Source: a bacterium (GTDB lineage Bacteria; Sysuimicrobiota; Sysuimicrobiia; Sysuimicrobiales; Segetimicrobiaceae). From it: 34,414 nt of DNA. Location of the stretch: NCBI GenBank assembly GCA_035945995.1, contig DASYZR010000145.1, forward strand, positions 1-34,414, written 5' to 3'. The notes below the pieces were generated by a model. It was not told the DNA's origin. It worked only from the letters and a program-made list of their open reading frames with translations, and did no database searches. Positions 2,792 to 19,798 of the stretch are shown here, in pieces; position 1 is the stretch's first letter; each line of letters opens with the position of its first letter. The position numbers and the translations under genes are program-made.

Positions 2792-3338
2792 CCCGGCGCG
2801 CTCCCGCCGCGCCGACCCCGGGCGCTCCGTTCTTCCAGGGCTGTCCGAACCGTTCCCGGCTCGCGACCTCGTCGAGCGCCTTCCGCTGTTTCTTCCCCCG
2901 GCCGCCCGGCCGGGCCGGGTAGCCGAACGGCACGACCGCGAGTAGCTCGAACTCGTCCGGGATGCCGAGCAGGGATTTGATCTCCCGCATGCCGAGGAAG
3001 CCGACCCAGTTGGAGCCGATGCCCTCCGACCACGCCGTGAGCATCATCGACTGAATCGCGCGGCTGCCGTCGGAGACGCCGAACTTCGATGCCCGCTCGA
3101 CGGCGACGGCCACCGCCAGCGGCGCCTGCGCGATGTACGGGCCGTACCTCGCGAGGGCGCCGAGCCGGCGGAGGGTGTCCCGATTCTCCACGACGATGAA
3201 ATGCCACGGCTGGCCGTTCTGGCTGCTGCCGGTGAGGCGTCCCGCGTCGACGATCCGCCGCACGACGTCCGGCGGCACAGGCGCGTCGCGGTAGCTGCGC
3301 ACCGCCAGGATCGTGCGCACCGCGTCAAAGAGGTCCAT
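2727..3338 (-). CDS. Nitroreductase family protein (FMN-dependent)
   Basis: A 203-residue protein of the nitroreductase superfamily, which reduces nitro compounds, quinones or flavins with NAD(P)H using bound FMN. The N-terminal signature RSYRDAPVPPDVVRRIVDAG, the FMN-contacting segment SSQNGQPWHFIVV (39-51) and the later GIGSNWVGFLG (106-116) are all family-typical. The core ends near residue 168 (RERFGQPW). The last 35 residues are Arg/Gly/Ala-rich, look non-conserved and overlap the STAS gene tail-to-tail. ATG start at 3338 with GGGAG just upstream; the fumarase stop lies only 8 bp upstream, so it is the last gene of the DUF1275-fumC-nitroreductase operon. The substrate cannot be inferred. 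Confidence 0.9.
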   Translation of the reverse strand: MDLFDAVRTILAVRSYRDAPVPPDVVRRIVDAGRLTGSSQNGQPWHFIVVENRDTLRRLGALARYGPYIAQAPLAVAVAVERASKFGVSDGSRAIQSMMLTAWSEGIGSNWVGFLGMREIKSLLGIPDEFELLAVVPFGYPARPGGRGKKQRKALDEVASRERFGQPWKNGAPGVGAAGARRATAESSDRGRGRARVPHPPRP

Positions 3339-5731: not shown

Positions 5732-6643
5732 ATGAGTCGTCGTCTTGCTGCTCTGGGGCTCGCCGCCGCGCTTGCGCTCGGCGTCGCGGTCGCCGCGCCG
5801 GCCCCGGTTCCCGCCCAAACCAAGCTGGTGATGGCGTTCGTGCCGTCCGGGGAAGCGCGGACGATCCTCGAATCGGGCAACCGCATCGCGCATCTGCTCG
5901 AGATGGCGACCGGGTACCAGTTCCAGACCTTTGTGGCGACGAGTTATGCCGGGGTCATCGAGGCGATGGGCGCCAACCGGGCCGACATCGGCTGGCTGAA
6001 CACGTTCTCGTACGTGATCGCCCACCAGAAATATGGCGTCGAGGTGCGGCTGGTCACGGTCCGATTCGGTCTGCCGTACTACAGGGCGGAGATCATCACG
6101 CAGTCCAATTCCGGCATCAACGGGCTCGCCGATCTGCGCGGCAAGCGCTTCGCCTACGTGGATCCCGCGAGCACCTCGGGCTACCTCTTCCCGGTCGCCG
6201 GGCTGAAGAAGGCCGGCTACGATCCGCAGACGTTTTTCGGCCAGACGGTCTTTGCCGGCTCACACAACAACGTGGTCCTCGCCGTCTACCAAGGCCGCGT
6301 GGACGCGGGGTCCGTGTTCGAAGACGCGCGGGCCACGGTGCAGAAGAGCCTGCCCGACGTGATGCAGAAGGTGAAGGTGGTGTGGAAGTCGGATCCGATC
6401 CCGAACGACACGGTCAGCGTCCGGAGGGGGCTCCCCGAGGACGTCAAAGCGAAGGTCACCAACGCCCTGCTCCGGTTCTCACAGACCCCGGCCGGACTCG
6501 ACGCGCTCAAGTCGCTGTACGAGATCGAGGCGCTGGCGGATTACAATCTGCTCGTGACCAAGTACAAGATCCACGCCGCGAACCTCGACGCGTTCTTTGA
6601 CCCGGTGCGGGACGTGCAGCGATACGTGGGTCTGACGCCGTAG
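5732..6643 (+). CDS. phnD: Phosphonate/phosphite-type ABC transporter substrate-binding protein (PhnD family)
   Basis: Extracytoplasmic binding protein of 303 residues. A Sec signal peptide is visible (SRRLAALGLAAALALGV, then a PVPAQT cleavage region). There is no lipobox cysteine, so it is either secreted or held by an uncleaved anchor. The mature part has the PhnD fold: LVMAFVPSGEA, a GANRADIGWLNTFSYV segment and the phosphoryl-binding loop DPASTSGYLFP. ATG at 5732 follows AAGGAGG with a 7-base spacer. Genes for the ATPase and permease follow. No C-P lyase, phosphonatase or phosphite dehydrogenase gene is nearby, so the ligand (phosphonate, phosphite or another oxyanion) is open. Confidence 0.92.
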   Translation: MSRRLAALGLAAALALGVAVAAPAPVPAQTKLVMAFVPSGEARTILESGNRIAHLLEMATGYQFQTFVATSYAGVIEAMGANRADIGWLNTFSYVIAHQKYGVEVRLVTVRFGLPYYRAEIITQSNSGINGLADLRGKRFAYVDPASTSGYLFPVAGLKKAGYDPQTFFGQTVFAGSHNNVVLAVYQGRVDAGSVFEDARATVQKSLPDVMQKVKVVWKSDPIPNDTVSVRRGLPEDVKAKVTNALLRFSQTPAGLDALKSLYEIEALADYNLLVTKYKIHAANLDAFFDPVRDVQRYVGLTP

Positions 6644-6719: not shown

Positions 6720-7490
6720 GTGACCGAGCCCATCCTGCGTCTCGAGCATTTAACCAAGGTGTACGAGGACGGCACGGCGGCGCTCACGGACGTCTCGTTC
6801 GAGGTCGCCGCGGGCGAATTTCTGGTCATCATCGGCCTGTCGGGGTCGGGCAAGTCCACGCTGCTTCGCTGCATCAACCGTCTGGTCACGCCGACCTCCG
6901 GCCGCGTGGTGCTGAACGGCCGGGACGTGACCGCGGCCGCCCGTGAGGAGCTGCGCGAGATCCGCCGCGGCGTCGGCATGATCTTTCAGCAGTTCAATCT
7001 CGTCCGCCGGGCTTCCGTGCTGACAAACGTCCTGGCCGGACGGCTCGGCTACGTGGCGCCGGCCTGGGCGCTGGTCAACTACTTCCCCGCCTCGGTGGTC
7101 GAGCAGGGGATGCGCAGCCTCGAGCGGGTCGGCATCGCGGACAAGGCGTTCACGCGGGCCGCCTCCCTGTCCGGCGGCCAGCAGCAGCGCGTGGGCATCG
7201 CGCGGGCGTTGATGCAGGAGCCCCGGTTGATCCTCGCCGACGAACCGGTGGCGAGTCTCGACCCGGCCTTGTCGCATTCGATCCTGAAGTACCTCGAAGA
7301 GCTCAACCGCAAGGACGGCATCACCGTGCTGTGCAGCCTGCATTTCTTGAGTCTGGCCCGGCGCTACGGCACGCGCATTCTCGCGCTCAAGGCGGGCCGG
7401 GTCGTCTTCGACGGCCGGCCCGCCGACATCGACGAGGCGCGCTTTCGCGCCATCTACGGCGAGCAGGCTGAAGAGGTCGAGATCACATGA
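6720..7490 (+). CDS. phnC: Phosphonate-type ABC transporter ATP-binding protein
   Basis: A 256-residue ABC ATPase energising import. Walker [11 protein letters not shown]-loop region [12 protein letters not shown] signature [15 protein letters not shown] and Walker [13 protein letters not shown] are all intact, followed by an H-loop in LCSLHFL. The segment [17 protein letters not shown] is characteristic of PhnC rather than other importers. GTG start at 6720; no strong ribosome-binding site. The 3' end overlaps phnE by ATGA, coupling ATPase and permease synthesis. Confidence 0.95.
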
Positions 7491-8626
7491 CACCGGCCAC
7501 ACCGGTGCCGTGGTATCGGTCCTGGCGCGCCTACGCCGGGTTCGTGATCGCAGTACTCGTGTACGCGTACGGTTGGCACGTCACGCAGATTCAGCTCGGC
7601 GAGCTGTGGCGCGGCGCGCGCCTGATCCGGCCGTTCGTCTCGGCCCTCGCCACCCCCGACGTCGCGGCGCGGGAGCCGGTGCTCGAGCGCGCCGCCGCGG
7701 GCTTCGATTACGGCGGGGCGGAACCGCCGTCCGGGCCCGCGGTCCCGCCGGGCGGACCCTCCCTCGGGCTGTCGCGACGATCCGGCGCGATCGGGGACCG
7801 TGTGATGGTGCGCGGCGAGGGCTTTGCGCCGGGCCGCGAGGGCGTGCTGTGGTGGGAAAATCAGATCGGCCAGCGCCAGCAGCTCGCGGGATTCCGCACC
7901 GACGCCGGGGGCCGGTTCACCGCCGCCGTCGTGGCACCGGACGTCCAGGGCACACGCAACCAGATCATCGCCGAGGTGACGACCGGCCTCGGCCCCTGGC
8001 GGTTCAGCCAGACCTTCTTCGTGGTGCTGGACCGCATGGTCGAGACGGTCTTCCTGGCGCTCATGGGCACGACGATGGGGGTGATTTTCGCCGTGCCCCT
8101 GTCGTTTCTCGGCGCGCGCAACCTGACCGGCCACCTGCCCGCCGGCGGCGCGGTCTACGCGCTCACCCGCACGGTGTTCAACCTCGCGCGCTCGATCGAG
8201 GCCCTCGTGCTGGCGATCATCTTCACGGTGTGGGTCGGGCTCGGCCCGTTTGCCGGCGTGCTGGCGCTCGGCGTGCACAGCGTGGCCTCGCTCGGGAAAT
8301 TGTATTCGGAGGCCATCGAGAGCATCGACACGGGGCCGATCGAGGCGGTGATGGCGACCGGCGCGAGCAGCCTGCAGATCATTCGCTACGCCGTCGTGCC
8401 GCAGATCGTGCCGCAGTTTCTCGCCTTCACGATCTACCGTTGGGACATCAACGTCCGCTTCAGCACCGTGATCGGGTTCGTAGGCGGCGGCGGGATCGGT
8501 TTTGTGCTCCAGCAGTACATCAACCTGCTGCAGTGGCCGCAGGCGGCGACCGCCCTATGGATGATCGCGCTCGTTGTCGCCGCACTCGATTACGCGAGCG
8601 CGGTGGTGCGCGAACGCCTCGTGTGA
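7487..8626 (+). CDS. phnE: Phosphonate-type ABC permease with inserted IPT/TIG-like extracytoplasmic domain
   Basis: A 379-residue permease; family members are usually about 260-280 residues. The first membrane segment is at about 15-30 (YAGFVIAVLVYAYGW). The standard permease core starts near 184 (MVETVFLALMGTTMGVIFAV) and includes the ATPase-contacting loop EAVMATGASSLQIIRYAVVP and the C-terminal membrane helices. Between them, about residues 70-183, lies an additional polar, beta-rich stretch: a Pro/Gly linker (GPAVPPGGPS), then SGAIGDRVMVRGEGFAPGR, TDAGGRF and VAPDVQGTRN. This pattern (G..V.V.G.GF.PG, then DA.G.F.A and P) resembles the IPT/TIG or related Ig-like fold. By topology it should lie outside the membrane, next to the docking site of the binding protein. 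Start overlaps phnC (ATGA). Confidence 0.9.
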   Translation: MTPATPVPWYRSWRAYAGFVIAVLVYAYGWHVTQIQLGELWRGARLIRPFVSALATPDVAAREPVLERAAAGFDYGGAEPPSGPAVPPGGPSLGLSRRSGAIGDRVMVRGEGFAPGREGVLWWENQIGQRQQLAGFRTDAGGRFTAAVVAPDVQGTRNQIIAEVTTGLGPWRFSQTFFVVLDRMVETVFLALMGTTMGVIFAVPLSFLGARNLTGHLPAGGAVYALTRTVFNLARSIEALVLAIIFTVWVGLGPFAGVLALGVHSVASLGKLYSEAIESIDTGPIEAVMATGASSLQIIRYAVVPQIVPQFLAFTIYRWDINVRFSTVIGFVGGGGIGFVLQQYINLLQWPQAATALWMIALVVAALDYASAVVRERLV

Positions 8627-18973: not shown

Positions 18974-19798
18974 ATGAAGCCCGTGCTGTTCCAGATCGGG
19001 CCGTTTCCCGTGTCCTCGTTCGGCGTGTTCCTGCTCGTGGCGTTTGTCGCGGGGATCCTCGTGCTCCGGGCAAGGACCACCCGGTGGCGCTGGGACGCCG
19101 GCGAGGTCCTCGATCTCAGCCTCTACTCGATCATCGGCGGCGTCGTCGGCGCGCGCATCGGCTATGTGCTCGTCAACCTTCGGGACTTCGCCGCCGATTG
19201 GCTCCGCGTGTTCACCATCTGGCGGGATGCCGGACTCGCCTTCTACGGCGCACTCGTGGGCGGGGCGATCGTGGCATGGCTGTACAGCCGGCGGCGTGGC
19301 TGGGATCTCGACTGGCTCGCGGACGCCGCCGCCCCCGGCCTGGCCCTGGGGTACGCGATCGCAATGATCGGGACGCTCCTCTACGGGCTCAATTACGGGC
19401 GGGCGACTGCGGTGCCCTGGGCGGTCGTGCTGTTCGGCGAGCCGCGTCACCCGACGCAGTTGTATCTGATGGTCGCCGCGCTCGTCATCTTCGGAATCGT
19501 GCAGTCCGCGGCCGGCCGGCCGCACGCGCCGGGCCGCGTGTTTTGGACGTTTCTCGGCCTCTACGGGATCGCGCGGGTGGTGGTCGAGGTTTTCATGGAC
19601 AGCCCCCGCGTCGTCGGAGCGTTGACGCTCGCGCAGATCGTGAGTCTCATCGTCATCGTGCTGTCGGTCGTGATGTGGTTCGCGCTCGGCCGCCGGCCGG
19701 CCGCGGAGGGGCCCGCCGGTCCCGCCGACCAGGGGGAGGTCTCGGCCGGGGATGATCGGGAGTCCGTTCCGTCCGAGCCCGGTGCACCCCAGCTCTAG
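18974..19798 (+). CDS. lgt: Prolipoprotein diacylglyceryl transferase family protein (divergent Lgt)
   Basis: A 274-residue membrane protein with the Lgt fold: IGPFPVSSFGVFLL, VGARIGYVL, YGALVGG, GEPRHPTQLY and ARVVVEVF. Lgt transfers diacylglycerol from phosphatidylglycerol to the lipobox cysteine. Compared by eye with E. coli Lgt, several residues are changed: Tyr26 to F16, His103 to Y91, Arg143 to M131, Asn146 to T134 and Glu151 to L139. The Gly154, Arg239 and Glu243 equivalents (G142, R201, E205) remain. Activity is therefore doubtful or mechanistically different. GGAGGTGA sits just before the ATG, three bases after the lspA stop. The polar tail after about 245 is non-conserved. Confidence 0.85.
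   Translation: MKPVLFQIGPFPVSSFGVFLLVAFVAGILVLRARTTRWRWDAGEVLDLSLYSIIGGVVGARIGYVLVNLRDFAADWLRVFTIWRDAGLAFYGALVGGAIVAWLYSRRRGWDLDWLADAAAPGLALGYAIAMIGTLLYGLNYGRATAVPWAVVLFGEPRHPTQLYLMVAALVIFGIVQSAAGRPHAPGRVFWTFLGLYGIARVVVEVFMDSPRVVGALTLAQIVSLIVIVLSVVMWFALGRRPAAEGPAGPADQGEVSAGDDRESVPSEPGAPQL

Follow-up and report, generated by a model that had tools for sequence, protein, structure and literature searches.

PhnE, the permease of a phosphonate-type importer encoded in the window (the whole stretch of DNA that was analysed, 34,414 nucleotides), carries a predicted Ig-like beta-sandwich in a loop that most likely lies outside the cytoplasm. Judged by alignments and a tree of its relatives, this insert is the mark of a whole PhnE clade, not an oddity of one genome. 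Its proposed role is that of an independently gained docking platform for the substrate-binding protein PhnD, analogous to the P2 domain of MalF, a reading that we put at a probability of about 0.5.

PhnE is the last gene of a compact operon with the order phnD-phnC-phnE, read entirely from the plus strand, in which the start of phnE overlaps the stop of phnC by 4 bases. Both operon partners that the definition of PhnE (TIGR01097) calls for, PhnD and PhnC, are encoded there. PhnD passes the general NCBIfam model TIGR01098 and fails the narrower TIGR03431; among solved structures it is closest to ArrX, PtxB, HtxB and PhnD. The PhnE of the window is the sole one found in its genome, where the next matches have E values of 2.8e-6 or weaker and cover only parts of the core. 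The C-P lyase protein PhnJ was found in 1 of 43 genomes of the window's phylum and was absent from the window's own genome. The features of the operon and of PhnE are as follows.

5732-6643, plus strand: phnD, substrate-binding protein of 303 amino acids, with a signal peptide without lipobox (PF12974, E 4e-67; TIGR01098)
6720-7490, plus strand: phnC, ATPase (TIGR02315, 321 bits, over the cut-off)
7487-8626, plus strand: phnE, permease of 379 amino acids with the extra domain (open reading frame; TIGR01097, 253.2 bits against a cut-off of 216.7)
7523-7585, plus strand: first membrane helix of PhnE, residues 13-33 (AlphaFold2/DSSP)
7595-7651, plus strand: second helix of PhnE, residues 37-55, directly ahead of the extra domain (AlphaFold2/DSSP)
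7658-8023, plus strand: extra segment missing from ordinary PhnE, residues 58-179, about 120 residues (alignment of 113 PhnE rows)
7664-8005, plus strand: predicted Ig-like beta-sandwich, residues 60-173 (AlphaFold2; neocarzinostatin-like fold for residues 84-182)
8009-8620, plus strand: MetI-like permease core, residues 175-378 (MetI chain 3tuj_B; PF00528)
8303-8404, plus strand: presumed EAA/coupling-helix region contacting the ATPase, residues 273-306 (motif read from the sequence)

The TIGR01097 model spans only residues 163 to 378 and leaves about 120 residues of insert-type PhnEs unannotated. Across 113 distinct PhnE rows, residues 58 to 179 correspond to 103 to 201 amino acids in 103 rows and to 7 to 16 amino acids in 10 rows; the row with 103 amino acids is L029, in which the insert is disrupted. 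Nine short PhnE rows of the window's phylum have 7 residues at this position, which agrees with the statement of the sequence-only reading that ordinary PhnE lacks such a domain. That reading had placed the domain at 7694 to 8035 (residues 70 to 183), a range that lies on a real segment, misses about ten residues at its beginning and runs into the first turns of the helix that follows. Residues 173 to 379 align with MetI (3tuj_B) over 204 residues with a Z score of 20.4, and residues 273 to 306, which we take to be the EAA/coupling-helix motif, contain many invariant columns in a 65-row alignment. The protein resembles ordinary PhnE (TIGR01097), the short permease found in importers of phosphonate and phosphite, in its core, its EAA region and its operon partners, and differs from it in having about 120 residues where ordinary PhnE has about 7 and in belonging to a clade that stands apart with a support of 100/100.

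The AlphaFold2 model of PhnE (65 rows; mean pLDDT 94.1, pTM 0.82) has strands at residues 60-75, 92-95, 105-111, 118-124, 130-137, 144-149 and 157-173, followed by a helix at 175-208, and the ten-residue means of pLDDT range from 83 to 98 across residues 61 to 180. The Ig-like beta pattern that had been read from the sequence thus reappears in the model as strands from residue 60 on. Residues 84 to 182 folded alone form strands again, with a pLDDT of 83. The best match of this isolated domain among solved folds is the neocarzinostatin group (Foldseek E 2.3e-3; VIA-align Z 9.8, rmsd 1.7 Å over 78 residues, 18% identity); numerous Ig-like folds rank next. Pfam, NCBIfam and a sequence search of solved structures gave no reliable match to the window's copy of the insert, and no Pfam family, TIG (PF01833) included, matched it at E values up to 1 or 0.5. 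Among 45 members of the insert family, weak matches were obtained to IPT/TIG (PF01833; 5 members, best E 0.0023), BIg21 (PF05688; 6 members, best E 0.013) and PF00960 (3 members, best E 0.01). Matches to CD276 (E 4e-6) were set aside as repeated weak matches in one chain. The insert contains a G-F-P and T-D-G-F pattern that presumably resembles IPT/TIG and BIg21 domains, and it shares with them an Ig-like beta-sandwich of seven predicted strands; unlike these domains, it sits in a permease loop and not in a repeat or adhesin context. From the initial IPT/TIG label the Ig-like beta-sandwich can be kept, whereas the family name finds no Pfam match and gives way to neocarzinostatin as the nearest solved fold.

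The apoproteins of neocarzinostatin, C-1027 and macromomycin are secreted carriers of enediyne chromophores. Their family (PF00960) provides the best solved fold for the isolated domain, although the window's copy has no match to the family itself. A domain of this kind could bind a cofactor or the phosphonate-type substrate close to where the importer opens, in a manner comparable to the neocarzinostatin cleft; profiles also match C-1027 (E 0.022) and PF00960 weakly, in line with the fold. However, likeness of fold shows no function, a mean pairwise identity of 34% does not suggest one conserved pocket, and specificity is already supplied by the binding protein, so that a ligand-holding module appears quite improbable.

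Three membrane helices are predicted by AlphaFold2 between the insert and the EAA loop. Since the EAA loop is cytoplasmic, this number of helices would place the insert on the opposite side of the membrane. Cysteines occur at the same two columns in 56 of the 103 inserts and are absent from 45, among them the window's own copy; one further insert has two cysteines, one of them shifted, and one other has a single cysteine elsewhere. No column of PhnE outside this pair holds more than 8 cysteines. The shared pair has the look of a disulphide, a bond that requires oxidising surroundings. On the tree, its state changes no more than 3 to 4 times (61 of the 70 insert rows scored, the other 9 being absent from that alignment), and a test on independent pairs is not significant; with so few changes, the cysteine argument is supporting and not decisive. 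Topology and shared cysteines together make an extracytoplasmic position of the insert most likely. The structure prediction of PhnE alone, proposed earlier as a check, returned a folded domain that is most likely extracytoplasmic. The opposite outcome, a cytoplasmic segment or a disordered linker, did not arise and is rejected on the predicted fold and the shared cysteine columns.

The PhnD of the window begins with a signal peptide, and no cysteine precedes its mature part, as the sequence-only reading had it in describing this protein as free of a lipobox. The same reading went on to suggest that the domain may tether the lipobox-less PhnD and so substitute for a lipid anchor. A lipobox is likewise absent from the PhnDs of the 24 other insert systems of the phylum (15 placed in the phylum and 9 with an inferred phylum, namely L036, L038 to L041, L044, L046, L051 and L061, with L046 placed through an identical sequence), which fits this suggestion. 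However, the short-PhnE systems of the same phylum have no lipobox either (0 of 5), and in Chloroflexota the lipobox is present in 20 of 22 insert-system PhnDs by script and in 21 by eye. Insert-system PhnDs labelled Actinomycetota have it in 2 of 2 cases and those labelled Spirochaetota in 3 of 17, and among systems without a phylum label it occurs in 5 of 6 with the insert and in 5 of 9 with a short PhnE. These counts leave out exact repeats and PhnDs with a cut or unaligned N terminus (such as L160, read by eye), and the script overlooks L066 and L170, where the lipobox is visible by eye. Five genomes that encode both systems run opposite to the prediction: four of the insert partners bear a lipobox (G651, G258, G326 and G195) against two of the short partners (G258 and G326, which are near copies of each other), and in G704 neither does. 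In addition, Omp85 is encoded in 39 of the 43 genomes of the phylum, the window's own included, pointing to an outer membrane and a periplasm in which a soluble PhnD can be retained.

The PhnD lipobox tracks phylum and not the insert. The expected link between the domain and a missing lipobox fails on both sides, as the insert partners of Chloroflexota are nearly all lipoproteins and the PhnDs read in the window's phylum lack a lipobox with either type of PhnE; nor are the PhnD partners of other insert-bearing PhnEs generally without a lipobox. The counts across phyla and the two-system genomes make an insert that replaces the lipobox so improbable that we regard it as ruled out as a general link. 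The window also contains a gene for Lgt (prolipoprotein diacylglyceryl transferase; 18980-19681, plus strand), one of two in the genome; the cell is thus capable of making lipoproteins, though PhnD is not one.

A PhnE over the cut-off is present in 34 of the 43 genomes of the window's phylum. All 34 have the insert type, judged by an HMM match that starts at position 36 or later, and six of them (G008 to G011, G019 and G041) have a short PhnE as well. Relatives of the window's PhnE are labelled Terrabacteria group ANGP1, Chloroflexota and Spirochaetota. The short and insert types occur side by side in Chloroflexota and Spirochaetota, with many short ones there, and the 80 loci compared, being the best 80 of 528, are biased to query-like PhnEs and overstate the frequency of the insert. 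On plasmids, none of 1037 matching records covers 80% of the query, and one Chloroflexota plasmid carries the insert.

All 70 insert rows fall into a single clade with a support of 100/100 in a tree of 101 permease cores, which was built without the insert columns, is unrooted and has a bootstrap that is not fully settled. The clade spans the window's phylum, Chloroflexota and Spirochaetota and comprises 73 rows, the three scored without insert being L171, one of the tandem pair of L092, and L029 with its disrupted insert. Spirochaetota rows are nested among Chloroflexota rows, which suggests transfer between phyla. The simplest reading of this pattern would be one gain of the insert, later losses and transfer between phyla.

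Comparison with six relatives at the genus and family levels gave dN/dS values of 0.22 to 0.44 for residues 91 to 180 and of 0.04 to 0.16 for the core, with the linker at residues 58 to 90 as the most variable part. According to these ratios, the insert is under purifying selection and kept, yet evolves faster than the channel. Its retention in relatives and this selection show that it is no chance read-through. Across 54 operons, mean pairwise identity is lowest for the insert (34%), higher for PhnD (48%) and highest for PhnC (67%) and the core (68%).

Several loci depart from the common layout. Tandem PhnE genes that both bear the insert are found at L062, L068, L070, L097, L110, L112 to L114, L165 and L167. 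The PhnEs of L172, L173 and L177 (Chloroflexota genomes G068, G055 and G096) reach about 610 to 630 amino acids; besides the Ig insert, they have a mostly hydrophobic stretch of about 220 residues that separates core helices two and three. The insert of L055 (PhnE frame from base 2111) has 201 residues, with a stretch ahead of the Ig domain that, by the impression of its sequence, looks PKD-like. In L029, L043 and also L140, with the PhnE frame starting at base 686, a piece resembling the C-terminal part of PhnD (50 bits, from PhnD residue 238 on) takes the place of the central portion of the insert, which is either a recombination or a fault of MAG assembly. The short-type PhnE of L159 (G202, PhnE frame from base 3107) has about 60 residues of a different, non-Ig kind at this place in the outer loop, and the slot seems tolerant of insertions. 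Extensions of about 100 residues ahead of the usual first helix, with a PGLGQ-type motif and hydrophobic stretches, occur in L182 (4280-5839), L092 and many loci of Chloroflexota and Spirochaetota; the window's PhnE has none.

Ig-like domains are frequent in bacterial surface proteins, and the only other match of the insert profile in the genome, a weak one (E 0.009), is an Ig-bearing protein of secreted type (L157, 403-1818, plus strand). Both would suit a domain that binds peptidoglycan, polysaccharide or an envelope protein and thereby fixes the importer in the cell envelope. Such an anchor is nevertheless unlikely, given that the same domain occurs in outer-membrane phyla and in Chloroflexota, which are mostly single-membraned, and that the window's copy gave no match to any family of envelope-binding domains.

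An insert in contact with PhnD would be expected to co-diverge with it to a degree that the divergence of the operon as a whole does not explain. In a set of 54 operons, insert and PhnD divergence gave partial correlations of 0.49 (linear), 0.39 (cubic) and 0.36 (rank) once the divergence of the core, of PhnC and of the N-terminal stretch was controlled; these controls are the only correction for shared ancestry, which the permutations do not remedy. The corresponding values for insert and PhnC were 0.05 to 0.11. For the N-terminal stretch, whose rate of evolution equals that of the insert, the values with PhnD were -0.10 to 0.02. Taken phylum by phylum, the PhnD signal is weaker: the contrast is plain in Spirochaetota (0.28 to 0.30 for PhnD versus -0.15 to -0.09 for PhnC), but by rank it is nearly gone in the window's own phylum (0.36 versus 0.33) and absent in Chloroflexota (0.36 versus 0.38). 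A composition effect shared by PhnD and the insert, which both evolve fast and lie outside the cytoplasm, could mimic co-evolution. The co-divergence lends mild support to a PhnD-facing role of the insert, and as indirect support it leaves plausible the earlier proposal that the domain serves PhnD.

The domain may instead have a structural role only, stiffening the outer loop or packing two PhnE subunits against each other with nothing specific to PhnD. This would fit the confident strands that continue into helices on both sides, selection on the insert that falls clearly short of that on the core, and the tolerance of its losses and of the non-Ig stretch of L159 in the same slot. It does not explain as readily why the insert is retained near-universally in the clade, nor why in the whole set its divergence tracks PhnD more than PhnC while that of the N-terminal stretch does not. 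We consider a purely structural role possible but doubtful.

Docking of PhnD, the preferred reading, has its closest parallel in the maltose importer of E. coli, in which MalF is paired with MalG, a subunit not known to carry a P2-like domain. Contact between the P2 domain of MalF and MalE has reportedly been described by Daus 2007 and Daus 2009. Like P2, the insert appears to be a folded extracytoplasmic domain in the outer loop of a type I permease. The structural alignment with MalF (4jbw_F) starts at residue 52 of the PhnE model, which corresponds to MalF residue 261, close to where P2 ends, and the slot looks equivalent. P2 is larger, with 181 residues (91 to 271), and one of its segments contacts MalE directly, according to passages of PMC3150292. 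No MalF chain was among the matches listed for the isolated PhnE domain, which is no evidence against kinship.

Following this parallel, a PhnE clade of type I importer permeases would have acquired an Ig-like beta-sandwich in its outer loop, ahead of the second membrane helix, probably once. A homodimer is expected because there is a single PhnE gene, and it would carry two Ig-like domains on its outer face, each presumably held by strands running straight into helices. The domain would hold or orient PhnD above the translocation path, as P2 does MalE, and through this putative contact may affect transport. It is not indispensable, as short PhnEs manage without it and, within the clade, L171 and one member of the L092 tandem pair lack it. 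The nearly invariant residues of the insert (P115, W123, G128, D139 and G142), which may be fold-forming, also speak against docking in that they indicate no obvious binding face. More tentatively, the insert may be a separately evolved MalF-P2-like solution, in which one neocarzinostatin-like Ig arm per subunit would retain PhnD at the transporter throughout the cycle. A permease built as a homodimer or from a tandem pair would then have two receptor-holding arms, and a swap of arms would change the accepted binding protein.

Searches of the open-licence part of PubMed Central listed no publication on an Ig-like domain of PhnE. Type I importer permeases are usually viewed as bare channels, with specificity residing in the binding protein and with MalF P2 as the textbook exception. 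A widespread clade of Ig-armed PhnEs, together with armless PhnEs in the same genomes, would provide natural pairs for probing docking and affinity.
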